A stretch of DNA of 64,000 bases from Halobacteriales archaeon QS_4_66_20 (lineage in GTDB: Archaea; Halobacteriota; Halobacteria; Halobacteriales; Haloarculaceae): assembly GCA_003021015.1 (NCBI GenBank), contig PXRK01000017.1:1-64000 (forward strand), read 5' to 3'. The position numbers and the translations under genes are program-made. The notes beneath the pieces were generated by a model. That model was given only the letters and a program-made list of their open reading frames with translations. It was not told where the DNA came from and did no database searches. Shown one piece after another: positions 4,540-32,573 of this stretch; positions within the stretch are counted from its first letter, which is position 1; each line of letters opens with the position of its first letter.

Positions 4540-5587
4540 TCAGCGGACCGTTCGCCGCACCGCCGGGATCGTCGCCGGACTGCTCATCGCGCTGGTGTTC
4601 CTCCTCGTCATCGTTCCGGGCGCCCTCGCCATCGGGCTGAAGCTACTCGGAATCATCGACGCGTCGTACGCCCGGTCGGCACTCCGGCTGACAGTCCCGA
4701 TCGCCTTCGCGGGGATGGGCGGTATCTTCGCGGAGAAGTCCGGCGTCATCAACATCGGGCTCGAGGGGCTGTTGATCATCTCGGCGTTCTCGGCGATCGC
4801 AGTCATGTGGTTCATCGGCGGCGGCGGAACCGGTGCCAGGATGATTGCCCTGTTCGGCGGCGTGCTCGCTAGCCTGGTCGTGACGCTTTTGTTCGCGATC
4901 ATCTGTATCGAGTTCAAGGCCGACCAGATCATCGCTGGCCTCGCTGTGTGGCTGATCGCGCTCGGCTTCGCCCCGTTCGGGAGCATCGTCATCTGGGAAA
5001 CGGTCAACAGCGACAGCGTCGGCTCGTTCGACTCGCTTGCGATGCCGCTGCTTTCTGACGTGCCGTACGTCGGCGATGTGCTGTTCACCGCGACGCCGCC
5101 GGTGTTTCTGATGCTGGCCGCCGTGCCGTTCTCCTGGTACCTGCTCAACCGGACGGCGTTCGGGAAACACCTGCAGGCGAGCGGCGAGGACCCCAGAACG
5201 CTGGACACCGCGGGCGTCAGCGTCCGGAAGGTGCGGTACATGGGCGTGCTTCTCTCCGGCCTGTACTGCGGCATCGGCGGGGCCGGGCTGGCGCTGAACG
5301 CCGGCCAGTTCGCCGGCGGCGGCGAAACGATCACGAGCGGCCGCGGCTGGATCGGCCTCACGACGTACCTGATCGCCAACTACAACCCCGTCGGCGCGTT
5401 CCTGGCGTCGTTCGGCTTCGCCGGCCTCGACGCGCTCCAGCTCCAGATCCAGGGCGTTCCCGGCGTCGAACTGTCGTCGACCCTTATCGAGATTATCCCG
5501 TACGTGGCTGTGCTCGTCGTCCTCGCCTTCGTGGGCAAAACCAGGATGCCGGAGTCCGCCGGGGAACACTACGAATCCGAGGAGTGA
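4532..5587 (+). CDS. Nucleoside-type ABC transporter permease 2 (BPD_transp_2 family)
   Basis: A 351-residue hydrophobic protein with the second-permease signature: GGIFAEKSGVINIGLEGLLI near the N terminus, ADQIIAGLAVWLIALG in the middle and GRGWIGLTTYLIANYNPVGA near the end. It pairs with the preceding permease, as YufQ/NupC pairs with YufP/NupB. ATG 4532 is preferred to GTG 4523; both overlap the end of permease 1. Its stop is 32 bases from the end of the convergent protease gene, so the two transcripts meet here. Confidence 0.88.
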   Translation: MADQRTVRRTAGIVAGLLIALVFLLVIVPGALAIGLKLLGIIDASYARSALRLTVPIAFAGMGGIFAEKSGVINIGLEGLLIISAFSAIAVMWFIGGGGTGARMIALFGGVLASLVVTLLFAIICIEFKADQIIAGLAVWLIALGFAPFGSIVIWETVNSDSVGSFDSLAMPLLSDVPYVGDVLFTATPPVFLMLAAVPFSWYLLNRTAFGKHLQASGEDPRTLDTAGVSVRKVRYMGVLLSGLYCGIGGAGLALNAGQFAGGGETITSGRGWIGLTTYLIANYNPVGAFLASFGFAGLDALQLQIQGVPGVELSSTLIEIIPYVAVLVVLAFVGKTRMPESAGEHYESEE

Positions 5588-5619
5588 TCGACCGTGGCAG
5601 CAACGGCGGGAACGGTCGA

Positions 5620-8600
5620 CTACGCTCCCGCGTGGACCCACTCGCAGTTCCCCTGGTCGACCTCCAGGTGCGCGGACGCTTGGTGGCCGTGGCAGGCCTG
5701 TCGCGCGATTTCGATGATCCGTTCGATGTCGCGTTCGCCGAGTCTGATCCCGAGCTCGTCGGCCTCCTCGTGGAGGGTCTCGTTGACCGCTTCCCAAATA
5801 GCGACGGGATCGTCGGTTTCGGCAGCCTCGTCGGCTGCCGCGTCGAGAGTGGCGTTGACGAGGTGTTCGACCGTCTCGTGGTCCATCCGTCCCTGTTCGA
5901 GCGCAGCGACCCGCTCGGTCGCATCGGTCGTCTGGACGATTTTCTCGGGGAGGTAACTCGCTTCGGTGAGGTTCGTGTCAGTACCGGTCAGGGACGGCCG
6001 TTCGAGGCCGAGCTGTTCGTGGAGCTCGTAGACTGTCGGGTTCGCAGAGAGCCTGAACTCGAGCGGCACGGGACGCTGGGCGTCCACGACGTAGCCGGCG
6101 AAGGGACTCACCTCGTCCTCCGCGGCGTCAGGTCCAAGCTGCCCGGTCGGCTGAATGGCCACCTGTTTCTCCAGGGTGACGGCGTCGGACGGCGTCGCGA
6201 ATGCCGCGTCGGGCTCGTCGTACAACGGCGCTGCGACGACGTTCTGTCCCCGATCCAGCGAGATCGGCGGTTTCCCAGGCCCCGCCGGCGGGTTCTTGCC
6301 GGATTCGGCCTGGAAGTTCGCGACGAGAGTCGTGTTCTCCTCCGGCGTTACCCGGAGGACGTCGAGCGGGTCAAGCTGAACGCCGGACCCGACGTCGACC
6401 GGCTCCCAGTCACCGCGCTGCTTGTCGTACATCTCGACGGTGCCCTCGAACGCCGACCCCAGTATCTCCGCGACGGTCTGGTCGGTTGGCCCGGGGATCC
6501 CGACCGCCTGGGTCTCGTTGGCAGCCAGCTCGAGGTGCGTCGCCAGCTCGGTCGTCTCGTCGGCATCGGTCGCGACGTCCGCCGGCGGAGCCGTCAGGAA
6601 CGGATCGTACCGGTTGACGGCAGCCGGATCGGGACCGCGTTCACCGAAGTAGTTCAGCCGGAGGTCCGGATCGAATTCGGGCGGGTCCCCGAAGTAGCTA
6701 ATAGTGTCCTTCTCGAATACGGTGTCGCTCGCCGAGAAATCGTTGTACCGGACCTCGACGGTCGGGTCGGTCTTGTCCACAACCCGGAGTCCGGTTTCGG
6801 CCTCGACGTGGTTCTCCGTCACCCGGGCGGTGTTGAAGTCCTGAACGCGGATGGCACCGAGAATCTCGATGCCAGTCCCGCTGTTCAGGACGTCGTTGTT
6901 CCGGACCTCGAACTGCCGCACGCCGTTGTTGATGACAATGCCGGCCTGGCTGTCGTTGAACGTGCTGTTCTCGAGCGTCGTGTTCCACGCGAAGCCGCCG
7001 ACGAAGCCGCCGTCACACTCGGGCGCGAAGAAGCCCTCATCACCCTCGCAGCCCTCCACGGTGACGTTAGTGTAGGTGACGCCGGTGCCCCACACGTGGT
7101 CGATACCGGTGGCGTCGGTCGTAAAGAAGCCTTCGCCAGCCGGTTTGAGGTTCCGGAACTCGGTATCGGATACCTCGAGGCCGTCGTAGGTGCCGTAGCC
7201 GCCGAAGAAGCCAGTCTCACCGACCACCATTCCGACCGGCCCGTCGGCGACGGTGACGCCGGTGATGGTCGTGTCCCTGGCGTCCACGAACAGCCCCTCC
7301 CGGAAATTGGAGTTCGCGAGGGCGATGCCCGTGCCGGCTTCGTAGATCTCGACGTCTCGGATCGTTGTCTCCCGGGTGTTCCCCCGGAGTTCGATCCCGT
7401 AATAGTCCCCGATGTTGGAGCCCCTGTCAGCGAGCTCCTCGGCTTCGTGATCGATCGTCAATCCGTCGACGGTCACTCCGGGCTGTTCGATCCGGAGCAC
7501 TGCCTCCCACTGTTTGGCATCTTTGCCCGGTTCCAGGACGGGGTCAGCACCGGGCGCGGCGGCGAGCGTTACGCCGGGCTGGTCGACGATCAACTGGCCT
7601 TTGTAGGTGCCGTTCGCGACGTGGACCGTCGCGCCCGGGAGGAGCATCGCGTTCGCCTCGTCCAATCCATCGACGTCCTCGCCGACGACGAGCGGCGGCT
7701 CGTACACCGCCGTCGTCCCCGTGAGGACGGTCAGCGGATGCTCCGCGCCAGCGGTCTCGACGGTCGTCTTGAGCGCCACTGCGCCGGCCTCGTCGGCCTC
7801 GACGGCGACCGTCACCTCGCCGTCCCGCTCGTCGAACTCGACGGTTTCGTCGAAGCCGACCGTCTCACCGTCGACCGAGAGGGTCAGCTCGTCCGCCGAG
7901 AGCGTCGACCGCTCGGCGACAGCGACGGAGAGCGATTCGAGGTCCGACACCTCGAACGTTGCCTCGACCGATTCGTCGGGGTCGACGCGGTCGGGCGGGG
8001 CGCGCTCGAGGGTTGCCTGCGGTTCCTGGCCCAGATACTGGACGGAGTTGACGAGCACATCGTCGGCGGCGTCGGTGAACTGGTCGTTCTCGGCCTTGAA
8101 ATACCGCCCCATCGACGCAGCGAGGACGGTCCGGGTCTTCTCGTCGATCGCGAGGCCCGGGCCTTTCACGCCAGCGTCGATCGTGTACCCGCCCTCGGGC
8201 AGGTTCACGCCAGCGAGCGTCTGTCCCGAGAACTCCTCGAAGGTCGTGTACTCGATCCTCCGATCGCGTTCCTGGATGGTGACGTTCTCGCCCGGTTCTG
8301 CGACGCCGTCGAGGATCGGGTGCGCCCGATCGACGCTGTACTGCAGGAAGTCGGTGGCGAACGTTTTATCCGACTTCGTGCGCTTGGGATCGTTCGTCGC
8401 CCGTGACAGCTGCGTGATCGCGTTGCTCGTGTCCGGCCGAGTGAACAGCAGTTGCGGCTGCTGATCGAGGTAGACGACCCCGGTTCCGGGGTCGGACGTG
8501 GCCTCGTGGAAGTCACCGGCGAGTTCCTCCCCGGATCCGAAGTTCTGGACGACGAACACGTCGTACTCGTCGGTCACGTCGAGGAGGTCCTCGGAACTGA

Positions 8601-14872: not shown

Positions 14873-16141
14873 ATGGGCAATGCCGGCTTCACCGAGGTGA
14901 CGCAGCTCGCCGCCGCCCGGGAACTGTTGGCCGAGTACTGCGAGCCGCACGGCCGGACCCAGCGCCGGTCGCCGGCCGACGCCGTGGGACACGTCCTCGC
15001 GGACGGCGTCGAGGCGGTCCGCCCGGTCCCGCACTACGACCGCGCGGCGATGGACGGGTACGCCGTCCAGGCAGCCGACACGTTCGGCGCGACAGATCGA
15101 TCGCCCGCTCGTTTCGAACGCGCCGAAGAAATCGTCGACGCCGGCACGGCGGTCCAGGTCAACACCGGCAGCGCAGTCCCCGAGGGTGCCGACGCCGTCG
15201 TGATGGTCGAGGAGACGGAACGCCGCGACGACTCGCTGCTAGTTTACGACGCCGTCGCGGAGCGCGAGAACGTCGCGCCTGCCGGGGAGGACGTGGAAGC
15301 GTCACAGCACCTCTTCGAGGCGGGCCACCGACTCACGCCGTCGGACGTTGCACTCCTCCGGGCCGCGGGCCGTGAGGCCGTCCCGGTTCGAGAGCAACCC
15401 CGGGTGAGCGTCCTCCCGACCGGCGAGGAGCTCGTCGACCCGGACGAGACCCCAGGACCTGGTGAGATTGTCGAGACGAACGGGTTGCTCGTCTCATCGC
15501 TGGTGACCCAGTGGGGCGGAGTGCCGAGCTACCGGGACGTCGTCACCGACGAGGAGGACGCGCTCCGGGCGGCCGTCGAGGGCGGCCTCGATCACGACGT
15601 CGTCGTCACGACGGGCGGTTCGTCGGTCGGCGAGCGGGACCTCGTCCCGGACGTCGTTGACGACCTCGGCGAGGTGCTCGTCCACGGGATCAGCCTCAAA
15701 CCCGGCCACCCGGTCGGGTTCGGCGTCGTCGACGGGACGCCCGTGGTGCTGCTGCCGGGCTACCCCGTCTCCTGTCTGGTTACTGCCGTCCAGCTTTTGC
15801 GCCCGGCGCTCGCGTGGCTGGCCGGGACCGAGCCACAGTCACAGCCGACCGTCCGGGCGACGCTGTCCCGGAAACTCCCGAGTGCGCCCGGCGAACGCAC
15901 CTTCGCTCGGGTCCGTCTCGAGGACGGGCATTCGGAGGAGGGTGGGGACGGGACCGAACCGACCGCCAGCCCGGTCCAGACGGGTGGCGCCGGCGTCATG
16001 TCGAGCGTCGCGTTCGCGGACGGCTGGGTCGAGGTACCCGAATCGCGCGAGGGAATCGCGGCCGGCGAGACCGTCACCGTCCAGCAGTGGGAACGTCCCG
16101 TGTTTCCGGGCGACAACGACGGGAGCACATCGGGGGAGTGA
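14873..16141 (+). CDS. moeA: MoeA molybdopterin molybdenumtransferase, second paralogue
   Basis: A 422-residue MoeA of normal length, without the extra C-terminal domain of its upstream neighbour. Conserved segments include HYDRAAMDGYAVQAADTFGA, VNTGSAVPEGADAVVMVEE, SVLPTGEELVDP, and VVTTGGSSVGERD. It is 48 bases after the first moeA and 7 bases before mobA. Two paralogues side by side are common in archaea; division of labour (molybdenum versus tungsten, or adenylate hydrolysis steps) is a guess that the sequence does not decide. Confidence 0.92.
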   Translation: MGNAGFTEVTQLAAARELLAEYCEPHGRTQRRSPADAVGHVLADGVEAVRPVPHYDRAAMDGYAVQAADTFGATDRSPARFERAEEIVDAGTAVQVNTGSAVPEGADAVVMVEETERRDDSLLVYDAVAERENVAPAGEDVEASQHLFEAGHRLTPSDVALLRAAGREAVPVREQPRVSVLPTGEELVDPDETPGPGEIVETNGLLVSSLVTQWGGVPSYRDVVTDEEDALRAAVEGGLDHDVVVTTGGSSVGERDLVPDVVDDLGEVLVHGISLKPGHPVGFGVVDGTPVVLLPGYPVSCLVTAVQLLRPALAWLAGTEPQSQPTVRATLSRKLPSAPGERTFARVRLEDGHSEEGGDGTEPTASPVQTGGAGVMSSVAFADGWVEVPESREGIAAGETVTVQQWERPVFPGDNDGSTSGE

Positions 16142-18464: not shown

Positions 18465-19958
18465 ATGTCACTACTTGACACGGACAGGACAACAGTTCGG
18501 ATCGCGTCTCGGGAGGCGGAGACCGCGATCGGGGACGTACTGCGGGACGCTGACAGTGAGGTTCACGCGGTCGGGTCGACGGGGGTACCGGCAGTCGAAC
18601 CCCTCGTGTTGCTCACCGAAGACGGACGGACCGCGTTCTTCGCAGCGTGTTCTGTCGGCCGCGCGGAGGCACTCCTGACGGGGCTCGAGGACGGGTTCGA
18701 CAGCGTCGTCGACGGCGCGGACGCGGTCGTCGAGCACGACCCGAATGCTGCACGGCTGCCCGCCACTGACCTGCCGGAACTGTCCGCCGGCCAGCGCACA
18801 GTGCTCGGCCCCTGCGGGTGGCTCCGGCCCACGGACCCCGACGACTACGAGGCTGCGGTCGGCTTCGGCGGCTCCGACCCGGAAACGATTCGCGAACTCG
18901 GCGCGGAGATCCTCGGCCGCGGCTGGGGCGACTGGTGTCAGGACCGCACGCTGGCCGACAGCTGGGAAACGGCACGCGAGGCAGATGGCGACCCGACAGT
19001 GGTCGTCAATGCCCACGGGACGGGAGCCGACACACTGCTATCGTCGAGCGCGCCGTTCGCAGTGCTCGACGGGGCGGCGGCGGTGGCACGCGCGACCGAC
19101 GCCGAGCGGATCGTCGTGTACATCTCGCAGGACGACGACCACGCCGTCGATCAGGTCGAAACAGCGGTGTGGGGGTACCCCGATCCCCCTGTTTCGATGT
19201 CGGTCGTGACCGGCCCTGCCGTCTACCGCGCGGCCGAGCCGACGATGGCGATCGAGGCCATCGAGGGCAACCACCGGCTCGAAGCGCGGCTTCGGCCACC
19301 GGGCCCGGACGAAACCGGCATCCACGACCGGCCGACTGTCGTCCACACCGCCAGGACGGTCGCACACCTCGCGGCCGCACTCGACACCGGCAGCCCGGCC
19401 GACTCGCGGCTGGTCACGGTCACCGGCGACGTGGCCGCGCCAGCGACGGTCGAACTGCCGGAACGGGCCAGGCTCGCGGCGGCGCTTGACGCCGTCGACG
19501 GCGCCGAGGAGTACAAAGCCGCCTGCGTCGGCGGGCGCTTCGGCGGGCTCACGGATTCGCTCGACGTCCGGGCCGGCCCCGAGTCGCTGCTCGACGCCGG
19601 CCTCGGGACGGAGGGCGTCGTCGAACTGCTCGGCGAGGACCGCTGCGTTGTCAAGTTCGTCGGCGAGCGGGCACAGTTCGCCGCCGACACGAACTGCGGG
19701 CGCTGTGTCCCCTGTCGGGAAGGAACGACACAGCTCGCGGAGCTGCTGCGCGACCTCTACGACGGGCGGTACCGCCGCGACGGCATCGAGGAACTGATCG
19801 GCGTGATGGAGCGGTCGAGTATCTGCACGTTCGGAGTCGACGCCGGCCGGCCGACCCGGACGGCGATGACCGAGTTCGAATCCGAGTTCCACGCCCACGC
19901 GGACGGGCGGTGTCCGGCCGGCAGCTGTCCGCGGAAAGCCGAGGTGTCTACCACATGA
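18465..19958 (+). CDS. NuoF-like iron-sulfur subunit of formate dehydrogenase with degenerate FMN/NADH site
   Basis: A 497-residue protein. The C-terminal part keeps the NuoF [4Fe-4S] site: CGRCVPCREGTTQL plus SSICTFGVDAG (four Cys). The central Fp-type fold is recognisable but the nucleotide motifs are altered: LGRGWGDWCQ where GRGGAGFP is expected, VVNAHGTGADT in place of VNADEGEPG, and GPAVYRAAEPTMAIEAIEG in place of GAYICGEET. Normal NuoF uses these to bind FMN and NADH, so this subunit may pass electrons to something other than NAD (inference). It is first in the operon; its TGA overlaps the next ATG (ATGA). A TATA-like CTTAATAC lies at about 18427-18434. Confidence 0.82.
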   Translation: MSLLDTDRTTVRIASREAETAIGDVLRDADSEVHAVGSTGVPAVEPLVLLTEDGRTAFFAACSVGRAEALLTGLEDGFDSVVDGADAVVEHDPNAARLPATDLPELSAGQRTVLGPCGWLRPTDPDDYEAAVGFGGSDPETIRELGAEILGRGWGDWCQDRTLADSWETAREADGDPTVVVNAHGTGADTLLSSSAPFAVLDGAAAVARATDAERIVVYISQDDDHAVDQVETAVWGYPDPPVSMSVVTGPAVYRAAEPTMAIEAIEGNHRLEARLRPPGPDETGIHDRPTVVHTARTVAHLAAALDTGSPADSRLVTVTGDVAAPATVELPERARLAAALDAVDGAEEYKAACVGGRFGGLTDSLDVRAGPESLLDAGLGTEGVVELLGEDRCVVKFVGERAQFAADTNCGRCVPCREGTTQLAELLRDLYDGRYRRDGIEELIGVMERSSICTFGVDAGRPTRTAMTEFESEFHAHADGRCPAGSCPRKAEVSTT

Positions 19959-20863
19959 GTTCCGAACCGTTCGATTCCGACGACGCACCGCCACTGACAG
20001 AGACGATCGCGCCGGGGACGGCGTCCGACCCGCCGCTGGGCGCCGAGGACGCGGTCACCGTCACCGTCGACGGGACCGAGGTGACCGTCGGCAGTGGCGC
20101 GACGCTGCTCGACGCCGTCGAGGCCGTCGACACCGACGACAGCGTCCCCGCGCTCTGTCAGTACGACCGCCAGGACATCGGCCCCAGAAGCGAGTGCCGG
20201 ACCTGCATGGTCGAGACCGACGAGCACGGCGTCGTGCCGGCCTGTAGCTTCCCTGCCGAGGAGGGCCTGGACGTCGAGACCGCCGCGGCCGACGCCGCCG
20301 AGGCCCGCGACGTGAACCTCGACCTGGTGCTGTCGGATCACAACCTCCGGTGTACCACCTGCGGGAAGAACGGCCGGTGTGACCTCCAGGACGCCGCTAT
20401 CGAACAGGAGGTCGAGGAGCCACGGTACGGCGTGCTGGGCGACCGCGAGGAGTACGAGCCGATCGACGACTCCTCGTCGTTCATCCAGATCGACCGCAAC
20501 AAGTGCATCCTCTGCAACCGATGTGTCGAGGCCTGCAACGACGTCCAGGTCGAGGGCGTCCTCCGCATGGAGGGCTCGGGCCAGGACACCCGGATCGGCT
20601 TCCAGAACGGCGCGGAGACGATGGAGGACTCGACCTGTGTCTCCTGTGGCCACTGCGCGACGGTGTGTCCGACCGGCGCGCTCGTCGAGAAAGGGATCGA
20701 GGACGCGACCACGATCCCGCTGCCCGGCTTCACACAGAAGAACAGCGTCGGGAAGGTGATCGACGGCACGGACGACTCCAAGGAGCCCATGACGCCGAAG
20801 AAGCGTGATCTACCAGTCGACACCGCCCCCGAGGAGGACAAGGAGGTGCGCGACTGGCCATGA
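19955..20863 (+). CDS. NuoG-N-like ferredoxin subunit of formate dehydrogenase
   Basis: A 302-residue electron-transfer protein with the N-terminal NuoG/FdhA layout: a [2Fe-2S] plant-type site (CQYDRQ, then CRTCMVE and a further Cys in PACSF), a His-Cys3 [4Fe-4S] segment (DHNLRCTTCGKNGRCDL), and two [4Fe-4S] ferredoxin sites (CILCNRCVEACN and CVSCGHCATVCP). It should carry electrons between the molybdenum subunit and the NuoF-like subunit. It overlaps both neighbours by 4 bases (ATGA). In many bacteria this region is fused to the catalytic subunit; here it is separate. Confidence 0.9.
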   Translation: MSSEPFDSDDAPPLTETIAPGTASDPPLGAEDAVTVTVDGTEVTVGSGATLLDAVEAVDTDDSVPALCQYDRQDIGPRSECRTCMVETDEHGVVPACSFPAEEGLDVETAAADAAEARDVNLDLVLSDHNLRCTTCGKNGRCDLQDAAIEQEVEEPRYGVLGDREEYEPIDDSSSFIQIDRNKCILCNRCVEACNDVQVEGVLRMEGSGQDTRIGFQNGAETMEDSTCVSCGHCATVCPTGALVEKGIEDATTIPLPGFTQKNSVGKVIDGTDDSKEPMTPKKRDLPVDTAPEEDKEVRDWP

Positions 20864-23169
20864 CCGACGACGACCTCGACGGCGTGGCCGGCTACATGCA
20901 GCAGGCCAGACAGCAGGCGCTGAAAAACGTCGAGAACGTCGCCGAAGGGGTGGCCGCCGAGACGCTGCCCGAGGGCAAGCTGTTCGAGATCGCCCAGTCG
21001 ATCGGCGACAAGCGCCTAGATGAGCTGAACGTCGCGGACACGACCTGCGGGTACTGCGCCGTCGGCTGCCGGTTCGACCTCTACTCCGACGGCGAGGAGA
21101 TCCTGGCGGCCCGGCCGACCGACGAGGAGGACGCGCCGGTCAACGGGATTTCCACCTGCGTCAAGGGGAAGTTCGGTTACGACTTCATCAACTCCGACGA
21201 CCGCCTGACAGCGCCGCTGGTCCGCGGCGAGGGCGGCGAGTTCCGCGAGGCGAGCTGGGACGAGGCGCTCGACCGGGTCGCGGAGGGTCTGAGAGAGATC
21301 AAGGACGAACACGGCGGCGAGGCGCTGTCAGTGATCGCCTCCTCGAAGGCCACCAACGAGGAGAACTACCTGATGGGCAAGTTCGCCCGGCAGGTGCTTG
21401 GCACCAACAGCGTCGACAACTGCAACCGGCTGTGTCACTCCTCGACGGTCGCCGCGCTCGCGAAGGTGTACGGCTACGGCGCGGCCTCGGTCAGCACCGA
21501 GGATCTGGAGACGACCGACTGCTACCTGCTGACCGGCTCGAACACGACCGAGGCCCACCCCGTGATTGCGACCCGGATCAAGCAGAACGTCCGGGACGGC
21601 GCGGACCTGCTGGTGTTCGACCCCCGCGAGATCCAGATGGCCGAGTACGCCGACCAGTACACGCAGGTCAACCCCGGCTACGACGCCACCTGGATCAACG
21701 CCATCACGAAGTACATCATCGACAACAACCTCTATGACGAGGAGTTCGTCGACGAGCGAACGACGGGCTTCCAGGACGTCACGGAGAGCGTCCAGGAGTT
21801 CACGCCCGAGCGCGTCGAGGAAATCTCGGGGGTCCCCCACGAGGAGATTGTCTCGGCAGCCGAAACCATCGCCGAGGCCGACACGTGCGTGTTCGGGTGG
21901 ACGCTCGGGCTGACCGAACACTCCCACGGCACGGAGAACGTCATCGCGATGGCGAACCTCGCGGCGATCACGGGCAACCTCGGCAAGCCCGGCACTGGCG
22001 TCTCACCCTTCAGGGGGCAGAACAACGTCCAGGGCGGGGGCGGCGACATGGGCCCGCTGCCGGACAACTTCCCCGGCTACCAGGACGTCGCTGACGACGA
22101 GATCCGCGCGAAGTTCGAGGAGGCGTGGGACTGTGACATCTCCGGCGAGTACGGCTACTACACGACCCAGATGTTCCTCGAAGCCGACAAGGGCAACATC
22201 CGCGGGATGTACATCATCGGCGAGAACTCCGCGCTCTCCGAACCCGGCGTCAACCACGCCGAGGCGGTCCTGGAGAACCTCGACTTCCTCGTCGTCCAGG
22301 ACCTGTTCGTCACCGAGACCGCGAAGTACGCCGACGTCGTACTCCCGGTGTCGTCGTTCGTCGAGAAGACGGGGACGTTCACCAACACCGACCGGACCGT
22401 CCAGATGGTCAAGGAGGTGATGCCGCCCAAGGGCGACTCGCGGCCGGACTGGAAGATCCTCCAGGACCTCGCAAACCGGATGGGCCGGGACTGGGACTAC
22501 GACGACACCGAGGAAGTAATGGAGGAGGTCAACTCCCTGACGCCCCTGTACGGCGGGATTTCCCACGAGCGCATCGAGGAGCACGGCGGGCTCCAGTGGC
22601 CCTGCTGGGACACGGACCACCCCGGGACGACCCGGCTGTACGCCGACGAGTTCAACACGCACAACGGCAAGGCGAACCTCGAGGGCGTCGGGTTCAGCGA
22701 GCCGGCGGAGCTGCCGGACGAGGACTACCCGTTCACGCTGACGACCGGGCGGGTGCTGTACCAGTACCACACGGGGACGATGACCCACCGCGAGGAGGGA
22801 ATCATGCAGTACACCCCCAGCGACTTCGTGGAGATCCACCCACAGACCGCCGCGAACTACGGCATCGAGAGCGGCGAGATGGTCACCGTCACCTCCCGTC
22901 GCGGGGAGATCACCGTTCCGGCGCAGGTGACCGACCGGATCGGCCCCGACAGCGTGTTCGCGCCGATCCACTTCGCCGAGACCGCCGTCAACCGCCTCAC
23001 CGACGAGGAACACCTCGACCCCGCGGCCGCGACGCCGGAGTACAAGGTGTCGGCCGTGCGGATCACGCCCGCCGAGGGCGAGCCACAGCCGATCGGGGCC
23101 GGCGCCGGCGAACCAGCGGCGGAGGAGGCCGACCGGCCCGACGAGGGCGAAACCACGGGGGACGACTGA
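20860..23169 (+). CDS. fdhA: Formate dehydrogenase alpha subunit (Mo/W-bis-PGD, Cys type)
   Basis: A 769-residue catalytic subunit of the DMSO-reductase superfamily. The N-terminal [4Fe-4S] site is Cys63, Cys66, Cys70 and Cys100. The active-site segment NSVDNCNRLCHSSTV places Cys188 where selenocysteine sits in E. coli FdhF, followed by the conserved His193 (LCH), so this is a cysteine-type formate dehydrogenase. Later conserved stretches include NLAAITGNLGKPGTGVSPFR and the molydopterin dinucleotide-binding domain at about 610-735 (TLTTGRVLYQYHTGTMTHR). Oxidises formate to CO2, passing electrons to the two upstream subunits. Substrate identity rests on the operon and active-site match; an assignment to a related oxidoreductase is less likely. 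Confidence 0.88.
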   Translation: MTDDDLDGVAGYMQQARQQALKNVENVAEGVAAETLPEGKLFEIAQSIGDKRLDELNVADTTCGYCAVGCRFDLYSDGEEILAARPTDEEDAPVNGISTCVKGKFGYDFINSDDRLTAPLVRGEGGEFREASWDEALDRVAEGLREIKDEHGGEALSVIASSKATNEENYLMGKFARQVLGTNSVDNCNRLCHSSTVAALAKVYGYGAASVSTEDLETTDCYLLTGSNTTEAHPVIATRIKQNVRDGADLLVFDPREIQMAEYADQYTQVNPGYDATWINAITKYIIDNNLYDEEFVDERTTGFQDVTESVQEFTPERVEEISGVPHEEIVSAAETIAEADTCVFGWTLGLTEHSHGTENVIAMANLAAITGNLGKPGTGVSPFRGQNNVQGGGGDMGPLPDNFPGYQDVADDEIRAKFEEAWDCDISGEYGYYTTQMFLEADKGNIRGMYIIGENSALSEPGVNHAEAVLENLDFLVVQDLFVTETAKYADVVLPVSSFVEKTGTFTNTDRTVQMVKEVMPPKGDSRPDWKILQDLANRMGRDWDYDDTEEVMEEVNSLTPLYGGISHERIEEHGGLQWPCWDTDHPGTTRLYADEFNTHNGKANLEGVGFSEPAELPDEDYPFTLTTGRVLYQYHTGTMTHREEGIMQYTPSDFVEIHPQTAANYGIESGEMVTVTSRRGEITVPAQVTDRIGPDSVFAPIHFAETAVNRLTDEEHLDPAAATPEYKVSAVRITPAEGEPQPIGAGAGEPAAEEADRPDEGETTGDD

Positions 23170-23170
23170 G

Positions 23171-23761
23171 ATGGCCGAACCAGCCGATTCCTACCCCGAG
23201 TCGGCGACGCTCAGGGACGAGGACGGCGGGGCCGAGAAGGCGGAACCCGAGGACCTGCGGGCGGCGCTGGCCGCACACGACGAGGAGCTCGCGGCGGCCG
23301 TCGAGGGGACCGGCGAGCTCGGTGACCTGTTGACGACGGCGATCCTCGTGGCCGCCAGCGCCGACGACGAGGAGGTCGAGCACCTGACTGACAGGACGTC
23401 GAACCTCGTCGCGGCGGCCGACGGCCTCGCCACGGACGAGACGGCGGCGCTCGCGGCCGACCTCGGCGAGAACGCCGGCGAACTCGCGCGGCTGCTGGAA
23501 ACGTTGCTGGCGCTCCAGCGGGAGGGTCACCTCGACGACCTGATCGAACTGGCCGAGCCGCTCGCGGCGCTGGAGATCGACGAGGACACAGCGGAGGGGC
23601 TGAACGCCGTCCTCGGCGCCGTCGGCGAGGCGGGGACCGACTCCGGGCCGCTGTCGCTGTCCGGGCTGGTGAGTGACCTCCGGAGCTCGGAGCTGCGTGC
23701 CGGCGTGGGCTACCTGCTGTCGCTCCTGAAAGCGCTCGGGCGGCGAGTCCAGGAGAGCTGA
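23171..23761 (+). CDS. DUF1641 protein associated with formate dehydrogenase
   Basis: A 196-residue, highly acidic, helical protein with the DUF1641 pattern (repeated Leu-rich amphipathic helices such as LLTTAILVAASADDEEVEHL and LSGLVSDLRSSELRAGVGYL). DUF1641 genes accompany FdhF-type formate dehydrogenases in other organisms (for example the yrhD-yrhE pair of Bacillus), so it is probably an assembly or accessory factor; no activity is established. It starts one base after the fdhA stop and its stop overlaps the next start by one base (TGATG). Confidence 0.8.
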   Translation: MAEPADSYPESATLRDEDGGAEKAEPEDLRAALAAHDEELAAAVEGTGELGDLLTTAILVAASADDEEVEHLTDRTSNLVAAADGLATDETAALAADLGENAGELARLLETLLALQREGHLDDLIELAEPLAALEIDEDTAEGLNAVLGAVGEAGTDSGPLSLSGLVSDLRSSELRAGVGYLLSLLKALGRRVQES

Positions 23762-25716
23762 TGGAAGACGACCGCGAGACCGTCTGCTCGCTGTGTGCGG
23801 TCGGCTGCCGACTCGCGCCCGGCGCGGAGGGCTCGCGCGCGGTCGGGCGGGAGGGTCCGGTCAACACCGGCGGCCGGCTCTGCCGGAAGGGGATCCACGC
23901 ACTCGAGCGGATTCCGGACGACGAGCGGCTCACGACGCCGCTGGTCCGCCGCGACGGCTCGCTGGAACCGGCGAGCTGGACGGCGGCCTACGACCGGGTT
24001 GTGTCGGGTATCGAGCGGGCGGTCGAGCGACACGGCCCGGACGCGCTGGCGTTTCTCGGCGCGCCACACTCGACGACCGAGGAGAACTACCTGCTCGGGA
24101 AACTCGCCCGGACGCTGGGGACCAACAACGTCGACAACCGCGCCCGCCTGTGTCACGTCTCCTCGGCGCGGGCGCTTTCCGACCGGCTGGGCTGGCCGGC
24201 CTCGACGAACGGCCTGGCCGACCTCCGGGATGCGGCGGTGATCCTCGTCGTCGGCGCCAACCCCGCCGAGCGCCAGCCGATCGCGTTCAACGGCTACGTC
24301 AGGCCGGCCGTCAACGCCGGGGCAACGCTGATTCACGTCGATCCGGTCGGCAACGAGACGACGCGGCTGGCCGACGCCCACCTGGCGCCACGTCCCGACA
24401 CGGACGGGCTGGTGCTGGATCTGCTGTGCGCGGCGGTGCTGGACGCCGGCGGGGTCGACCGGTCGTTCGTCGAGGCGCGGACGTCGGGGACCGATCGGTT
24501 CGTCGACGAACTGGCGGCGCTCGACCGGGCGGCGCTCGCGGAGGCGGCGGGGGTCGAACAGGACGCCGTCGAGCGCGTCGCGGAGACGATCAGCGACGCG
24601 GACGGCGTGGCATCGATCGTCGGAACAGGTATCGAAACCGACGAGCGCGAGCCCAGCGCCGCGGATTCGTTGCTCAACCTGCTGTTGCTGACGGGCAACG
24701 TCGGGCGGCCCGGGGCGGGCCTCCACGTGTTTCGCGGGCTGTCCAACGAGCAGGGGGCGACCGACGCCGGCTGCGTCCCCGATCGACTCCCGGGCCACCA
24801 GCCACTGGACGATCCGGAGGCTCGCACCCGGATCGAGCGCGAGTGGGGCGTCGCTCCGCCGGAGACGCCGGGCCGGACGGCGCACGAACTGCTGGCTGCG
24901 TTCGGCCAGGAGATTCACTGCGCGCTCGTCGTGGGCGAGAACCCGGGAGTGTCGAAGCGCGATCCCGACTGGATCGGGGACCGACTCGGCGGACTGGACA
25001 CCCTTGCCGTGGTCGAACTGACCGAAAGCGAGACGACCCGCCACGCGGACGTGGTGCTGCCGGCCGCTGCGCCGGCGGAGAAACGCGGCACCATGACGAA
25101 CCTCGACCGGCGGATCCAGCCGCTGCAGCCCGTGCGGGAGCCGCCCGCGTCGGCCCGGACGGACTTCGAGATCCTGCGGACCATCGGAGCGGAGTTCGGC
25201 GAGTTCGAGTACGAGGATCCAGAGGACGCCTTCGCGGAACTGTGCGCCGTCGCACCGCCGTATCGAGGTATCGAGTACCCGGAACCGGGGGAGCAGGGTG
25301 CGCGCTGGCCCGCCGGGAGCGGGCGCGTGCTCTACCGGGAGGCGTTCCGGACGCCCGACGGCCGGGCGCCGTTGGTCTCCCCGGCCCATCGTCCCGAATC
25401 GACGCCCGGTAGCGGTCTGGAACTCGTCGTCGGCGGGCGCGCGACAGACGCGTCGTCGGCCGGGGAGGAGGGACAGGTCCGGCTCCATCCCGCCGACGCC
25501 GCGGACCGCGACGTGGACGACGGCGACCGAGTCCGCGTGGCGACCGGCGGCGCCGACCTCAGAGCTACGGCCCGACTCGAGTGGTCGGTCCGCCGGGGGA
25601 CTGTCTCCCTGCACGCAGCCGTCGCCGACCCACTCGTCCGCACCGGGGCCGACCGGGTGTCGATCGAACCGCTCGCCGGGTCGTCCGGCAGGGACGCGAC
25701 CGACGGCCGGCCCTAA
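23761..25716 (+). CDS. Second molybdopterin oxidoreductase-like protein lacking the metal-ligand Cys
   Basis: A 651-residue paralogue of the preceding fdhA. It retains the [4Fe-4S] motif (Cys9, Cys12, Cys16, Cys41), the bis-MGD fold segments (LLLTGNVGRPGAGLHVFRG) and a C-terminal dinucleotide-binding domain (about 560-640), but the active-site stretch reads NNVDNRARLCHVSS: Arg127 occupies the position of Cys188 of FdhA. Without a Cys/Sec/Ser/Asp ligand there, it may be an inactive scaffold, a cofactor-loading partner or an enzyme of altered chemistry (inference). It is the last gene of the operon and ends 9 bases from the convergent threonine ammonia-lyase gene. Confidence 0.8.
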   Translation: MEDDRETVCSLCAVGCRLAPGAEGSRAVGREGPVNTGGRLCRKGIHALERIPDDERLTTPLVRRDGSLEPASWTAAYDRVVSGIERAVERHGPDALAFLGAPHSTTEENYLLGKLARTLGTNNVDNRARLCHVSSARALSDRLGWPASTNGLADLRDAAVILVVGANPAERQPIAFNGYVRPAVNAGATLIHVDPVGNETTRLADAHLAPRPDTDGLVLDLLCAAVLDAGGVDRSFVEARTSGTDRFVDELAALDRAALAEAAGVEQDAVERVAETISDADGVASIVGTGIETDEREPSAADSLLNLLLLTGNVGRPGAGLHVFRGLSNEQGATDAGCVPDRLPGHQPLDDPEARTRIEREWGVAPPETPGRTAHELLAAFGQEIHCALVVGENPGVSKRDPDWIGDRLGGLDTLAVVELTESETTRHADVVLPAAAPAEKRGTMTNLDRRIQPLQPVREPPASARTDFEILRTIGAEFGEFEYEDPEDAFAELCAVAPPYRGIEYPEPGEQGARWPAGSGRVLYREAFRTPDGRAPLVSPAHRPESTPGSGLELVVGGRATDASSAGEEGQVRLHPADAADRDVDDGDRVRVATGGADLRATARLEWSVRRGTVSLHAAVADPLVRTGADRVSIEPLAGSSGRDATDGRP

Positions 25717-27037: not shown

Positions 27038-29590
27038 CTACCTGATGATCTTGTCCCGCCCCGGATCGAACAGCGGTTCGTCCCGGATCGTCGCGTCGTA
27101 GCGCTGGCCCTCACACTGCACGGTGACCGACGTGCCCGCCTCGGCGTACTCATCAGGGACGTACGTGTAGGCGATGGACTCGCCGAGGGTGTAGCCGTAG
27201 TTGCCCGCCTGGACGTACCCGATCGCCTCGCCGTCCTTCATCACCGGGCGGCCGCTGAGCATGATGTCCGTCGAATCGTCGAGGGTGAGGGGCGTGATGC
27301 GGTTGTCGATGCCGGCCTCGCGGGCCTGCGCGAGCGCCTCCTTGCCGACGAAGTCGGTGTCCATGTCGACAGCGAACGGCAGCCCCGCCTCGAAGGGGTT
27401 GGAGTCCGTGTCGATGTCGGTGCCCCACAGCCGGTAGCCTTTCTCGAGGCGCATCGAACTCAGGGCGCCGCCGCCCATCGGCCGGACGTCGAGATCCTGG
27501 CCGGCCTCCCACAGCGTCTCCCAGAGCCGCTGGCCGTACTCGACGGGCGCCCACAGCTCCCAGCCGAGTTCGCCCACGTAGGAGACCCGCAGCGCGAGCA
27601 CCGGCACCTCGCCGACGTACATCTGTTTCGCGCGGAAGTAGGGGAACCCGCTGTTGGTCACATCGGCATCGGTACACCGCTGGAGCAGCAGCCGCGATTT
27701 CGGCCCCCACAGCCCGATCGTCGACCTGCCGCCCTCCTGGATCTGCACCGACACGGTGTCGGGGGCGTGCTCCGCGAGCCAGCCGCCGTGGATCCCGGGG
27801 GAGTTGCCGCCGCCGGTCGTAACCACGTACTCCTCCTCGTCGAGTTTGACGACGGTCACGTCCGCGAGGATGGTGCCGCCCTCGTTGAGCAGCAGCGAGT
27901 ACCGGACCTGCCCGACGTCGATGTCGATATCGTTCGAACACATCCGCTGGAGGAAGGCACGGGCGCCGTCGCCGGAGACCTCGATCGAGGAGAACGTCGT
28001 CATGTCGAACATCGAGACGTGCTCGCGGGTGTGGAGGTGCTCGGCCCCCTCGATCGGCGAGCGGTTGATCGCCTGCCAGCCGTCCTGCTCGGGGATCTGG
28101 TCCTCGTAGCGCTCCAGGAGGTCCGCGTTGTGCTCGTAGTACTGCGGCGACTCCCAGCCGCCGGACTGGTAGAACTCCGCCCCCAGTTCCTGCTGCTGGT
28201 GGTAGAACGGGCTGGTGCGCAGGCCGCGGTGATCGTCGGGCTGCCAGCGCGGGTCGACGACCATGTACACCTGCTCGTACCGGGTCGCGCCGCGATCGAC
28301 GAAGTACTCTTTCTCGCCGGCGTGTGGTTCGAACCGCCGGACGTGGATGCCGCCGGTGTCGACCGGTCCGGAGGGGAGCCGCGGGACGCCGTTCTCCATC
28401 CACTCGGCGAGGATCCGGCCGTAGCCGCCCGAGTGCGTCCACCAGATCGCCAGCGCGCTCCAGAGGCCGTCGACGGCGGCCGTCGGCCCGACCGCGGGCA
28501 TGCCGTCCGGCGTGAACACGAAGATGCCGTTTTCGGTCGCCTCGTAGGACGCGTCGGCGCTGGCCGGCAGCAGTTCGTCGAACGCCTGCTTTGCCGATTT
28601 GTCGCGGTGGCGGTGGGTCGGCTCCGTCCAGTGTTCCTCGGTGAACCCGCGCACCGAAGCCTGCCGGTCCTCGCTGTTTGTGCCCATCTCCTCGGGGTCG
28701 ACCGACAGCGTCTCGTGGTTGTACGACCCCATCCCGAGCGCGTCGCCGTGCGTGCGGAAGTACAGCGAGTGGTCCTGGTCGCGGCCGACCGGCCGGGTCG
28801 GCCCCTGGCTCATGTACTCCTGGATCGAACGGTCGCCCGGTACGTCCAGGCCGGTCGTGTGCTCGCCGACCGAACTGTCGAACTCCGACAGCTCCGGCAG
28901 GGGTTCGGTGACGACGTACTGGTGTTCGACCGGCGCGATGGGGAGGTCCAGCCCCGCGAGCTGGCCGGTCTGGTACCCCCAGTTGTTCGTCGCCATCACG
29001 CACCGGTCGCACTCGATGCGGCCGCGGTCGGTGACGGCGGCCCGGATCTCGCCGCCCGCCACCTCCAGGTCCTCGACGGTGGTGTTGCCGTAGAAGGCGG
29101 CGTCGCTGTGCTCTATGTACCACTGCAGGGCGCCGATCCCGTCGACGCGGCCGTCGGTCGGCGAGTAGTACCCGCCCAGGATCTCCTCCTCGTTCACCAT
29201 CGGGAGGGACTCGGTCACCTCGGCCGGCGAGAGGAGTTGCGGGTCCGGCAGACCGTAGGAGGTCGCCCACTCCTCGCGCCGGCGCAGGAACGCCATGCGC
29301 CGCTCGCTGCGGGCCACCTCGATGCCGCCGACCTCGTCGTAGACGCCCGCGTCGGCGAACAGCCTGCTCGTGTAGTGCGCTGTCTTCGTCTGGAGCTTCG
29401 ACGGCGACGTCTGGAACATGATGCCCGGCGCGTGTACCGACGAGCCGCCGGTCACCGGGAGCGGTCCCTGGTCGATGACCGCCACGTCCTCGGCGCCGAG
29501 TTCCGTCAGATGATACGCGACGCTGCACCCGACCGCGCCGGCGCCGATGACCAGAGTCTGTACCTGTGATGGGGGGTCTGTGCTGCTCAT
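27038..29590 (-). CDS. Dimethylglycine/sarcosine dehydrogenase-like FAD-GcvT protein 1
   Basis: An 850-residue protein with an N-terminal FAD-dependent DAO domain (Rossmann motif GAGAVG at 16-21, and SSVHAPGIMF with His53 at the position that carries covalent FAD in dimethylglycine dehydrogenase) and a C-terminal GcvT-type aminomethyltransferase domain from about residue 430 (MFDMTTFSSIEVSGDGARAF ... VGELGWELWAPVEYG ... FVGKEAL). Such enzymes demethylate dimethylglycine or sarcosine and pass the carbon to tetrahydrofolate as 5,10-methylene. Which of the two substrates is used cannot be read from the sequence. A TATA-like box at 29621-29627 suggests its own promoter. Confidence 0.85.
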   Translation of the reverse strand: MSSTDPPSQVQTLVIGAGAVGCSVAYHLTELGAEDVAVIDQGPLPVTGGSSVHAPGIMFQTSPSKLQTKTAHYTSRLFADAGVYDEVGGIEVARSERRMAFLRRREEWATSYGLPDPQLLSPAEVTESLPMVNEEEILGGYYSPTDGRVDGIGALQWYIEHSDAAFYGNTTVEDLEVAGGEIRAAVTDRGRIECDRCVMATNNWGYQTGQLAGLDLPIAPVEHQYVVTEPLPELSEFDSSVGEHTTGLDVPGDRSIQEYMSQGPTRPVGRDQDHSLYFRTHGDALGMGSYNHETLSVDPEEMGTNSEDRQASVRGFTEEHWTEPTHRHRDKSAKQAFDELLPASADASYEATENGIFVFTPDGMPAVGPTAAVDGLWSALAIWWTHSGGYGRILAEWMENGVPRLPSGPVDTGGIHVRRFEPHAGEKEYFVDRGATRYEQVYMVVDPRWQPDDHRGLRTSPFYHQQQELGAEFYQSGGWESPQYYEHNADLLERYEDQIPEQDGWQAINRSPIEGAEHLHTREHVSMFDMTTFSSIEVSGDGARAFLQRMCSNDIDIDVGQVRYSLLLNEGGTILADVTVVKLDEEEYVVTTGGGNSPGIHGGWLAEHAPDTVSVQIQEGGRSTIGLWGPKSRLLLQRCTDADVTNSGFPYFRAKQMYVGEVPVLALRVSYVGELGWELWAPVEYGQRLWETLWEAGQDLDVRPMGGGALSSMRLEKGYRLWGTDIDTDSNPFEAGLPFAVDMDTDFVGKEALAQAREAGIDNRITPLTLDDSTDIMLSGRPVMKDGEAIGYVQAGNYGYTLGESIAYTYVPDEYAEAGTSVTVQCEGQRYDATIRDEPLFDPGRDKIIR

Positions 29591-29620
29591 GTCGTTCGGT
29601 AGATGGTCTTCTGTCACAAT

Positions 29621-29627
29621 CATAAAG
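29621..29627 (-). promoter_or_regulatory. TATA box of FAD-GcvT gene 1
   Basis: Minus-strand ACTTTATG lies about 33 bases upstream of ATG 29590. It indicates that this gene is transcribed separately from its upstream paralogue, from which it is separated by 245 bases (29591-29835) with no other feature seen. Confidence 0.4.
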
Positions 29628-29835
29628 TCATTGGTAGCGCGAGAATGTTTGTACCGAGAAACGCGGATAGAGGGATTCAGGCACCAAGAATCGACAGATC
29701 GGGGCAGACAGCGGATCGTGGCGAATCAGCCCGGATGTCCGGTGTGGAGTGCAACCACAGATTGACAGAGAGACGAAACGATGTTTCTGCGGCAGGAATA
29801 CCCCGATCGCCGCGAGTCGAGTTCCCCGGAAGGGA

Positions 29836-32415
29836 TCAGTCGACCAGCGGTTCCTCGCGAACCGTCGCAGCGTAGCGGTCGCCCTCGTAAAGGATCTCCA
29901 GGTCGGTGCCGGGGTCGGCGTACTCCGGCGGGACGTACGTGTAGGCGACGCAGGCGCCGACGGTGTACCCGTACTCGGCGCTGTGGACGTAGCCGAGCGC
30001 CTCGTCCTCGCCGGGCGCGAACACGGGGCGGTTGTCGAGGATCGTCTCCTCCTCGTCGTCCAGCGTCAGGCAGGCGATCTTGTGGTCGATGTTGTCGCCG
30101 TCGGCCGCCGCGGCCACCGCCTCCTTGCCGACGAAGTCGGTCTCCAGGTCGACTGCCCAGCCCAGGTCCGTCTCGTAAGGGTTGTGTTCGGTGTGGAGGT
30201 CCTCGCCCCACAGGCGGAACCCTTTCTCGATACGGAGGGCGTCCAGCGCGCCGTTGCCGTACGGCCGGATGTCGTACTCCTTGCCGGCGGCGAGCACGTG
30301 CTCCCAGAGGCGTTCGCCGTACTCCGAGGGCGTGTACAGCTCCCAGCCGAGTTCGCCCGCATACGAGACTCGCAGCGCCCGGACGGGGACGTTCTTGACG
30401 AACGTCTCCTCGCTCGTGTAGAACGGGAACGCCTCGTCCGAGAGGTCGGTGTCCATCACTTTCGAGAGCACCTTGCGGGCGTCCGGGCCCGTACAGACCA
30501 TCGCCGCGAGGCTGGAGGTGACGTCGTTGACGACGACGCCCTCCGGCGCGCGGTCGCGGATCCACGCGACGTGGTTGTTCCCGACCTCGCGGCCGGTCGT
30601 CAACACGAGGTAGCGGTCCGCGTCGGTCCGCGTGACTGTCACGTCCGCGCGGACGCCCCCGCCCTCGTTGCACATGAGCGTGTAGGTGATGTCGTCGACG
30701 TCCAGATCGATGTCGTTCGTACAGAGAGACTGGAGGTACTCGCCGGCGTCGGCGCCGATCACCTCGATCTTGTTGAACGACGTCATGTCGTGGAGCCCGA
30801 CGTGCTCGCGGACGTGGAGGGCTTCGGCCCCCTCGATCGGCGACCAGTACGTGCCCTCCCAGCCGTGGCGGTCCGGGATCCGGTCCTCGTAGCGCTCGAG
30901 GAGGTCCTCGTTGGACTCGAACCACTGTGGCTCCTCCCAGCCGGCTTCGGCCCACAGTTCGGCGTCGTACTCCTGGTGGGAGTGGTACATCGGCGTCCGC
31001 CGGATGTCGCGCTGGTGCTCGGTCCACACCCACTTTGGGTGCATCACGTTGTACACGATGCGGTACTCCTCGCCGCCGATGTCGCGGGCGAACTCCCAAC
31101 TGCCCTCGTGCTCGTCGAAGCGGTTGACGTTACACCGCGAGAGGTCGATCGGCCCGTCGGGCAGCCGCGGCACGCCGTTCTCCATCCATTCGGCGAGCGC
31201 CTTGCCGGCGCCGCCGGCGTGAGTGACCCAGATCGCCGCCGCGGTCCAGAGCCCCTCGTACTGCTGGACAGGGCCCAGCACCGGCAGGCCGTTCGGCGAC
31301 TCGGCGAACATCCCGTTGTACTTGAACTCCAGGTCCTTGCCGGCCGTCGCGGGCAGGAGTTCGTCGCTGGCCTGGCGGGCGGACTTGTGTGGGCGGTCGG
31401 GGTGCGTCGGGTTGTTCATGTGGTAGTCGGTGAATTCCCGGACGGAGCCCTGTTCGCCCTCGGGGTCGTTGCCGCCGAGCTCCTGGGGATCGGGGACGAT
31501 CGGCTCGTGGTTGTACGACCCGATCCCGTAGGAGTCCCCGTGGGTCCGGTAGTACATCGCGTTGTCCTGGTCCCGGAGGATCGGCCGGTCTGGTCCCAGG
31601 AGCAGCCGCTTGGCCTTCTCGCCGGAGACGTTTTCGTAGTTCTCGAACAGCGGGTGATCGGTGACGTCGACGCCGCTTTTGGACAGCTCCTCCAGCGGCT
31701 CCGTCATCGTGTACTGGTGTTCGACCGGCGTCACCGGCAGGTGGACACCGATCCGCTCGCCGAGCTGGCGCGCCCAGATGTTCGTCGCGATGACGACCTC
31801 GTCGCACTCGATGGTGCCGTTCTCTGTCACGACACCCTGGACCGCGCCGTCCGCGACGTGGACGTCCTCGGTGCGGGTGTGCGGAACGAACTCCGCGCCG
31901 CGCTCCATCGCCTCGCGGGCGAGCGCGTCGCAGGCGATGACGCCCGACACCTGGCCGTCGGTCGGCGAGTAGTACCCGCCCAGGATCTCCTCTTCGTCCA
32001 CCAGCGGCAGGTGGTCGGTCACCTCGTCCGAGCTGAGCAGCTGGGGGTCCTCGATCCCCCAGGCGTGGCCCCACTCGACGCGACGCTGGAGAAACGCCAT
32101 TCGCTCCTCGCTGCGCGCGACCTCGATGCCGCCCGTCTCGTTGTACGCCTGCTGGCCGTCGGCGCCCTCCAGCCGGGAGTACAGCTGTCGGCTGTAGTTG
32201 GCGAACTGCGTGAGTTCCTTCGGCTCGGCAGTCTGGAACATGATCCCCGGCGCGTGCGTCGAGGAGCCGCCGGTCGTCGGCATCGGCCCCTGGTCGACGA
32301 CGACAACGTCCTCGCGACCGAGCTGCGTCAGCTGGTATGCGACGTTGCAGCCGACGATCCCGGCCCCGACGACCACTGTGCCTGCCTCCTCGGGCAGGCG
32401 CTCTGTCGTTTGCAT
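29836..32415 (-). CDS. Dimethylglycine/sarcosine dehydrogenase-like FAD-GcvT protein 2
   Basis: An 859-residue paralogue of the next gene on this strand, with the same two parts: DAO domain with GAGIVG at 17-22 and STHAPGIMF containing His54, and a GcvT domain from about 445 (LHDMTSFNKIEVIGADAGEY ... YAGELGWELYTPSEYGERLW ... FVGKEAVAAA). Together the two would allow consecutive demethylations (dimethylglycine to sarcosine to glycine) with capture of both carbons on tetrahydrofolate; this division is inference. ATG 32415 is preferred to an upstream start at 32463 because an AT-rich promoter (32446-32456) lies between them. Confidence 0.85.
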   Translation of the reverse strand: MQTTERLPEEAGTVVVGAGIVGCNVAYQLTQLGREDVVVVDQGPMPTTGGSSTHAPGIMFQTAEPKELTQFANYSRQLYSRLEGADGQQAYNETGGIEVARSEERMAFLQRRVEWGHAWGIEDPQLLSSDEVTDHLPLVDEEEILGGYYSPTDGQVSGVIACDALAREAMERGAEFVPHTRTEDVHVADGAVQGVVTENGTIECDEVVIATNIWARQLGERIGVHLPVTPVEHQYTMTEPLEELSKSGVDVTDHPLFENYENVSGEKAKRLLLGPDRPILRDQDNAMYYRTHGDSYGIGSYNHEPIVPDPQELGGNDPEGEQGSVREFTDYHMNNPTHPDRPHKSARQASDELLPATAGKDLEFKYNGMFAESPNGLPVLGPVQQYEGLWTAAAIWVTHAGGAGKALAEWMENGVPRLPDGPIDLSRCNVNRFDEHEGSWEFARDIGGEEYRIVYNVMHPKWVWTEHQRDIRRTPMYHSHQEYDAELWAEAGWEEPQWFESNEDLLERYEDRIPDRHGWEGTYWSPIEGAEALHVREHVGLHDMTSFNKIEVIGADAGEYLQSLCTNDIDLDVDDITYTLMCNEGGGVRADVTVTRTDADRYLVLTTGREVGNNHVAWIRDRAPEGVVVNDVTSSLAAMVCTGPDARKVLSKVMDTDLSDEAFPFYTSEETFVKNVPVRALRVSYAGELGWELYTPSEYGERLWEHVLAAGKEYDIRPYGNGALDALRIEKGFRLWGEDLHTEHNPYETDLGWAVDLETDFVGKEAVAAAADGDNIDHKIACLTLDDEEETILDNRPVFAPGEDEALGYVHSAEYGYTVGACVAYTYVPPEYADPGTDLEILYEGDRYAATVREEPLVD

Positions 32416-32445
32416 AATTCTGGTCGAAACGTCACGCTGGCGCGC

Positions 32446-32456
32446 AAATATAGTTA
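32446..32456 (-). promoter_or_regulatory. TATA box of FAD-GcvT gene 2
   Basis: Minus-strand TAACTATATTT lies 31-41 bases before ATG 32415 in otherwise GC-rich DNA. Confidence 0.5.
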
Positions 32457-32573
32457 TCGCCACCCCAACCCGTTTTCAACGTATCAGCGACGGACGAAGT
32501 AGAGGTATCGGAACGGCGTCCGGGCTGGCCCGCCCCCGATGGATCCTTTATCCGCTGGGCACCAATGGGGAGT

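Follow-up and report, generated by a model that had tools for sequence, protein, structure and literature searches.

The stretch of DNA analysed here (the window: 64,000 nucleotides of one contig of Halobacteriales archaeon QS_4_66_20, whose genome is ~89% complete) carries a formate dehydrogenase (FDH) operon on its forward strand. This operon encodes 2 FdhF-type proteins, a catalytic subunit that we call FdhA1 and a paralogue, FdhA2, that is the subject of this analysis. The genes of the operon and the features of FdhA2 are as follows:

18465..19958, + strand: NuoF-like subunit (NuoF'), 497 aa, with Pfam matches to NADH_4Fe-4S (8.8e-20) and, weakly, to Complex1_51K
19955..20863, + strand: HoxU/NuoG-N-type 2Fe-2S and 4Fe-4S electron-transfer subunit, with Pfam Fer2_4, NADH-G_4Fe-4S_3 and Fer4_7, and NCBIfam HoxU below its cut-off
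20860..23169, + strand: FdhA1, FdhF-type formate dehydrogenase catalytic subunit, 769 aa, TIGR01591 837 bits (above the 666 cut-off), CH...RGQ, ligand Cys192
23171..23761, + strand: DUF1641 protein (ForE-like), 196 aa, PF07849 26.6 bits (above the cut-off of 21)
23761..25716, + strand: FdhA2, the Arg127 paralogue, 651 aa, with a [4Fe-4S] site, ligand Cys131, His132, Arg325, an altered RGL-NEQG loop and a reduced domain IV
24121..24162, + strand: active-site loop of FdhA2, residues 121-134 (TNNVDNRARLCHVS), with Arg127 at 24139-24141 and the true ligand Cys131 at 24151-24153
24733..24765, + strand: second active-site loop of FdhA2, residues 325-335 (RGLSNEQGATD), where Arg325 corresponds to FdhF R333, Leu327 to FdhF Q335 and Glu330 to FdhF V338
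25414..25716, + strand: reduced domain IV of FdhA2, residues 552-651, without the TGRxxxxxHTGTMT segment, the H655/N662 equivalents and the PEYK tail

The first of the 2 FdhF-type proteins, FdhA1, has the sequence of a canonical FDH alpha subunit, with all FDH active-site residues conserved, CH...RGQ in 34/34 homologues, and ForC1 (8rqz) as its best PDB match. The HoxU-type subunit is encoded here by a separate gene, whereas it is fused in FdsA and ForC. An alignment of 38 NuoF' homologues retains the N3-type 4Fe-4S cysteines, but has GRGwGD and NAHG where GRGGAGFP and the NADH-binding consensus are expected, so NuoF' is probably not an NADH-binding subunit and NAD is an unlikely acceptor. In Bacillus ForCE, the DUF1641 partner ForE is needed for menaquinone reduction (PMC8808070). 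The DUF1641 protein of the window matches ForE1 of 8rqz weakly in a profile comparison (E=0.13), and its AF2 model reached a pLDDT of 47, which is not good enough to search for related folds. At 196 aa it is ~40 aa shorter than most of its orthologues, with one helical repeat seemingly missing.

The FdhA2 reading frame begins with ATG and runs for 651 codons. The original prediction held that Arg replaces the metal ligand in this protein. Residue 127 is indeed Arg, within TNNVDNRARLCH, and the upstream FdhA1 reads TNSVDNCNRLCH. The Cys of "RLCH" (Cys131 in FdhA2, Cys192 in FdhA1), however, aligns with the Sec of 9t1s ("ARLXH") by BLASTP, phmmer and MAFFT, and FdhA2 Cys131 aligns with Sec140 of E. 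coli FdhF, as read from NC_000913. Because of these alignments, we assign the Mo/W ligand of FdhA2 to Cys131, which is present. The misreading arose because the first of the 2 cysteines in the FdhA1 motif was taken for the ligand; Arg127 itself aligns with FdhF Cys136, a non-ligand residue, and FDH-N (FdnG) has Gln at the matching position. A paralogue without a metal ligand is thus refuted by the alignment of the RLCH cysteine with Sec in both 9t1s and FdhF; the attraction of this reading, an Arg in place of a Cys of the neighbor's motif, is superficial.

The remainder of the metal site is also in place. Across 40 FdhA2 orthologues, aligned together with 34 FdhA1, 21 other haloarchaeal FdhFs and E. 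coli FdhF, Cys131-His132 and Arg325 are invariant, and the iron-sulfur part is retained as the original prediction stated, the motif C9-x2-C12-x3-C16...C41 having all 4 cysteines in 40/40. FdhA2 scores 393 bits against TIGR01591 (NCBIfam), below the cut-off, with 2 orthologues at 465 and 488. Its AF2 model (pLDDT 87) has 8rqz (ForCE1) as the top Foldseek match, followed by other FDHs, with query-normalised TM-scores of 0.77-0.83 to solved FDHs, and the overall fold is predicted to be that of FdhF.

Around this conserved metal site the family carries a set of fixed changes. Position 127 is Arg in every one of the 40 orthologues and Cys in 55/55 other haloarchaeal FDHs, making Arg127 diagnostic of the FdhA2 family in these alignments; the Arg also occurs in one further locus (L104). 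The homologue survey that the original prediction called for thus bears out the conservation of Arg127, with no close homologue having Cys at this position, and a strain-specific mutation is ruled out. Relative to the same 55 FDHs, the FdhA2-specific substitutions are, in FdhF numbering, S108A (39/40), S109P, C136R, H181Q, A316L, Q335L (38/40) and V338E, most of which fall on loops that bear or adjoin active-site residues (FdhF 108-110, 136-141 and 333-340). From their joint fixation, Arg127 and Glu330 perhaps form an ion pair. At the position of FdhF Lys44, the electron-relay Lys of FDHs, the window's FdhA2 has Lys (K43), as do 27/40 orthologues, and the remaining ones have Arg, Glu, Asn, Asp, Ser or Thr. 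To our knowledge, the active-site codes of known metal-dependent FDHs form a very small set (CH RGQ, CH RGE, CH RGH and CQ RGH). The residue following RG in FdhA2 is Leu in 38/40 orthologues, with RGM and RGP once each, and is never Gln, Glu or His. RGL fits none of the RGQ, RGE or RGH classes of the ForCE paper, where FDHs are sorted by their CH/CQ and RGQ/RGE/RGH residues (PMC8808070).

The second major change lies at the C-terminus. The cofactor-binding parts were originally described as kept, and this holds for domains I-III, with domain II/III residues such as Asn167 and Asp194 retained, but not for the C-terminal cap, domain IV, which is without its conserved segments. Pfam Molydop_binding (PF01568) matches FdhA2 at profile positions 28-82 of 110 only. 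The FdhF R581-S590 segment and the H655/N662 equivalents are gone in essentially all members, none of the 40 orthologues has the domain IV motifs or the C-terminal PEYK tail, and the equivalents of Gln428 and Arg581 are lost. FdhA2 accordingly does not have the complete domain IV with C-terminal tail that marks FdhF-type FDHs, and its model falls below pLDDT 50 at residues 560-567. In this enzyme fold the cofactor is capped by domain IV, and its guanines are bound by domains II and III (PMC5123574).

A reduced cap and the loss of several cofactor-contact residues could mean that FdhA2 has no catalytic role and serves as a structural or electron-relay subunit, for which the inactive FdhF-like domains of StnC (PMC10482914) and NuoG (PMC5123574), which are free of molybdenum cofactor (Moco), offer precedents. 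Such a scaffold would be expected to lose its metal-site residues, and instead Cys131, His132 and Arg325, for which it would have no need, persist in 40/40 sequences at ~50% overall identity, alongside Asn167 and Asp194 of domains II and III. We consider this explanation improbable.

FdhA2 did not arise as a recent tandem duplicate of FdhA1. The 2 proteins are 32% identical (BLASTP), and FdhA2 sequences form a single clade (SH-aLRT 100 by a quick method, with long branches flagged) that joins the stand-alone haloarchaeal FdhFs and not FdhA1. Omega for close FdhA2 pairs is 0.12-0.23 (Nei-Gojobori), which indicates purifying selection, rules out a decaying gene at the family level and agrees with the original statement that FdhA2 was not simply decaying. 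Close FdhA1 pairs have values of 0.02-0.14, except for the pair L094/L097 (0.30), whose FdhA1 alignment does not look trustworthy. Mean identity in 32 linked pairs is 0.54 for FdhA2 versus 0.74 for FdhA1, and by these measures FdhA2 is constrained, though less so than its neighbor. The haloarchaeal assimilatory nitrate reductases NasA and NasC were also rejected as identities for FdhA2, which scores 279 and 325 bits where the cut-offs are 1000 and 1100.

Genomes carrying FdhA2 number 42 of the 394 in the class. Carriers known by name are Haloterrigena turkmenica (on pHTUR01), Haloterrigena salifodinae, Halomicrococcus gelatinilyticus, Halocatena salina, Natrinema and Halarchaeum. Family members score 840-1020 bits with the profile and the top matches from outside the class drop to ~550 bits, and RefSeq applies only the generic name "molybdopterin-dependent oxidoreductase"; the FdhA2 family is haloarchaea-only and previously undescribed. 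A scan of genome contigs yielded L031 as its sole orthologue. This locus belongs to the nearest relative (MAG SW_10_66_29) and shows a change of frame together with a deletion in FdhA2 domain IV (7650-8010), with the C-terminal part in another frame, which may be an assembly error or a real loss.

The association with FdhA1 is close. FdhA2 was originally called a tandem paralogue, and both genes do lie in the same operon, but with the DUF1641 gene between them. The usual gene order is NuoF'-HoxU-FdhA1-DUF1641-FdhA2, with five-gene synteny in ~26 loci and FdhA1-FdhA2 linkage in a few more. The suggested co-occurrence with fdhA holds without exception in the close FdhA1 clade, FdhA2 being present in 31/31 class genomes with an FdhA1 at an identity of at least 65% (Fisher p 4e-37, with counts taken from 2 tables and shared ancestry ignored). 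Where the 2 genes are unlinked, FdhA2 is still in the genome, ~20 kb away in G310, ~170 kb away in G368 and elsewhere in G287, G196 and G335. The suggested co-occurrence with DUF1641 is looser: this gene usually adjoins, and most FdhA1 operons keep it, but it is missing beside the FdhA1-FdhA2 pairs of L090, L094, L095 and L097. In L093 (G390, 5575-8010), the FdhA1 beside an intact FdhA2 is split over several frames by frameshifts.

The operon lies among genes of one-carbon metabolism. Folate genes are found at 17614 (FTCD_C), 34856 (MTHFR-like) and 38899 (FolD), and the minus strand at 27038-32463 carries 2 tandem DMGDH/sarcosine-dehydrogenase-like proteins of 861 and 875 aa with DAO and GCV_T domains. 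These flanking genes point to formate that would come from one-carbon catabolism. Separately, a MoeA gene for Mo insertion lies at 14873-16141, ~2.3 kb upstream of the FDH operon.

This folate-rich C1 setting, with its FTCD_C, FolD, MTHFR-like and 2 DMGDH-like genes, would also suit an independent molybdo- or tungsto-enzyme that acts on another small C1 or carboxylate substrate and is co-transcribed with FDH for shared one-carbon catabolism and electron carriers. An invariant metal site surrounded by substrate-side residues that were switched in a concerted, fixed way is what such an enzyme might show, and unlinked yet co-occurring copies are compatible with it. Co-occurrence in 31/31 genomes with one FdhA1 clade, however, exceeds the usual level for a shared pathway, the reduced domain IV and the drift at Lys44 speak against full-speed turnover, and the single [4Fe-4S] site of FdhA2 is all that it has for electron transfer. 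An independent enzyme is a serious competitor that we nonetheless hold to be unlikely.

A role in cofactor maturation, the cofactor chaperone of the original prediction, would have FdhA2 hold or hand Mo/W-bisPGD to FdhA1. A profile search returned no FdhD (PF02634) sulfurtransferase at E<=0.001 in 60 haloarchaeal genomes including G000, many of which encode FDH (controls were positive in 8 of 14 genomes), and a further search likewise yielded no match over the cut-off, so that FDH maturation in these organisms would need another factor, and an open cap over a retained ligand site could suit a carrier. In genus g23, FdhA2 loci including unlinked copies (L083, L086, L087, L090, L094 and L097) have a moaA-like radical SAM gene (Mob_synth_C) close by, a hint of a molybdenum-cofactor neighborhood, and orphan copies near moaA in this one genus would be in keeping with maturation. 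We find the chaperone idea possible, though less probable than the alternatives, given that the Mo ligand, His and Arg do not vary and that haloarchaea with an FDH but no FdhA2 are likewise without a recognisable FdhD, which means that FdhA2 is not a general substitute. A carrier would moreover need no [4Fe-4S] cluster, and we know of no chaperone of this class that is a full FdhF paralogue. A dedicated maturation factor is accordingly very unlikely.

The explanation that we favor, with roughly even confidence, is that FdhA2 is a cofactor-binding, catalytically remodelled partner subunit of a ForCE-like formate:quinone oxidoreductase. The proposed complex would be soluble or peripheral and would contain FdhA1, HoxU, the flavin-less NuoF' and, usually, DUF1641/ForE, with FdhA2 as an obligate partner. 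FdhA1 would oxidise formate, and the electrons would travel via HoxU and NuoF' to DUF1641, where quinone would be reduced as it is in Bacillus ForCE. FdhA2 would bind a pterin-Mo/W centre through Cys131 within a rebuilt second sphere, in which Arg127 and Glu330 would introduce charge and Leu327 would take the place of the Gln, Glu or His that follows RG in known FDHs, and beneath a reduced cap. Because of this rebuilt second sphere and reduced cap, FdhA2 is probably not a standard-type formate dehydrogenase; most likely it would be a second, unequal subunit that docks with FdhA1 and contributes a redox or regulatory site.

The partnership is inferred from co-occurrence and synteny. Cofactor binding by FdhA2 is not certain, because Lys44 is kept in 27/40 orthologues only and the Gln428 and Arg581 equivalents are lost, and the faster divergence of FdhA2 than FdhA1 would be expected of an independent enzyme or under relaxed constraint just as much as of a partner. 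The absence of DUF1641 beside some FdhA2 genes also speaks against the proposed complex. More tentatively, FdhA2 could represent a new haloarchaea-only Mo/W-bisPGD subfamily (CH...RGL, fixed Arg127/Glu330, open cap) in an asymmetric FdhA1-FdhA2 complex, where one protomer oxidises formate and the other carries out different chemistry or gates electrons to quinone.

As a widespread paralogue, FdhA2 offers a natural test of second-sphere residues and of the cap, in which the ligand, His and Arg are kept, RGL, C136R and V338E are fixed, and the domain IV cap is opened. That it accompanies one FdhA1 clade in every case points to a formate:quinone oxidoreductase of asymmetric build, and the apparent lack of FdhD sharpens the question of how haloarchaeal FDHs mature and are sulfurated.

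Comparison with known systems places FdhA2 closest, by identity (42-47%) as well as on the tree, to stand-alone haloarchaeal FdhF-type alpha subunits (such as L006, L011 and L012; TIGR01591). These share with FdhA2 their size, domains I-III and the ligand Cys, His and Arg, but differ in having Cys at the 127 position, RGQNNVQG, an intact domain IV with a PEYK/PEFK tail, and no FdhA1 operon. Bacillus subtilis ForCE1/ForCE2 (PMC8808070; 8rqz) resembles FdhA1 in that an FDH catalytic subunit adjoins a DUF1641 partner. ForC, however, combines CQ...RGH with a fused HoxU-type N-terminus, while FdhA1 has CH...RGQ and a separate HoxU, and FdhA2 has CH...RGL; ForCE also has neither the second FdhA nor the NuoF of the haloarchaeal operon. 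The NAD-dependent FdsABG and MeFDH1 (6tg9 and 7vw6) share with the FdhA1 operon a gene set of HoxU/NuoG-N, FdhA and NuoF-type subunits, but the haloarchaeal NuoF' is without the FMN/NADH consensus in all 38 homologues, no NuoE/FdsG gene is present in the five-gene operon, and FdhA2 and DUF1641 are additional. Finally, NuoG of complex I and StnC are like FdhA2 in combining an FdhF fold and an altered cofactor region with a retained Fe-S cluster, but those proteins are without Moco or without catalytic activity (PMC5123574, PMC10482914), whereas Cys-His...Arg persists in 40/40 FdhA2 sequences.
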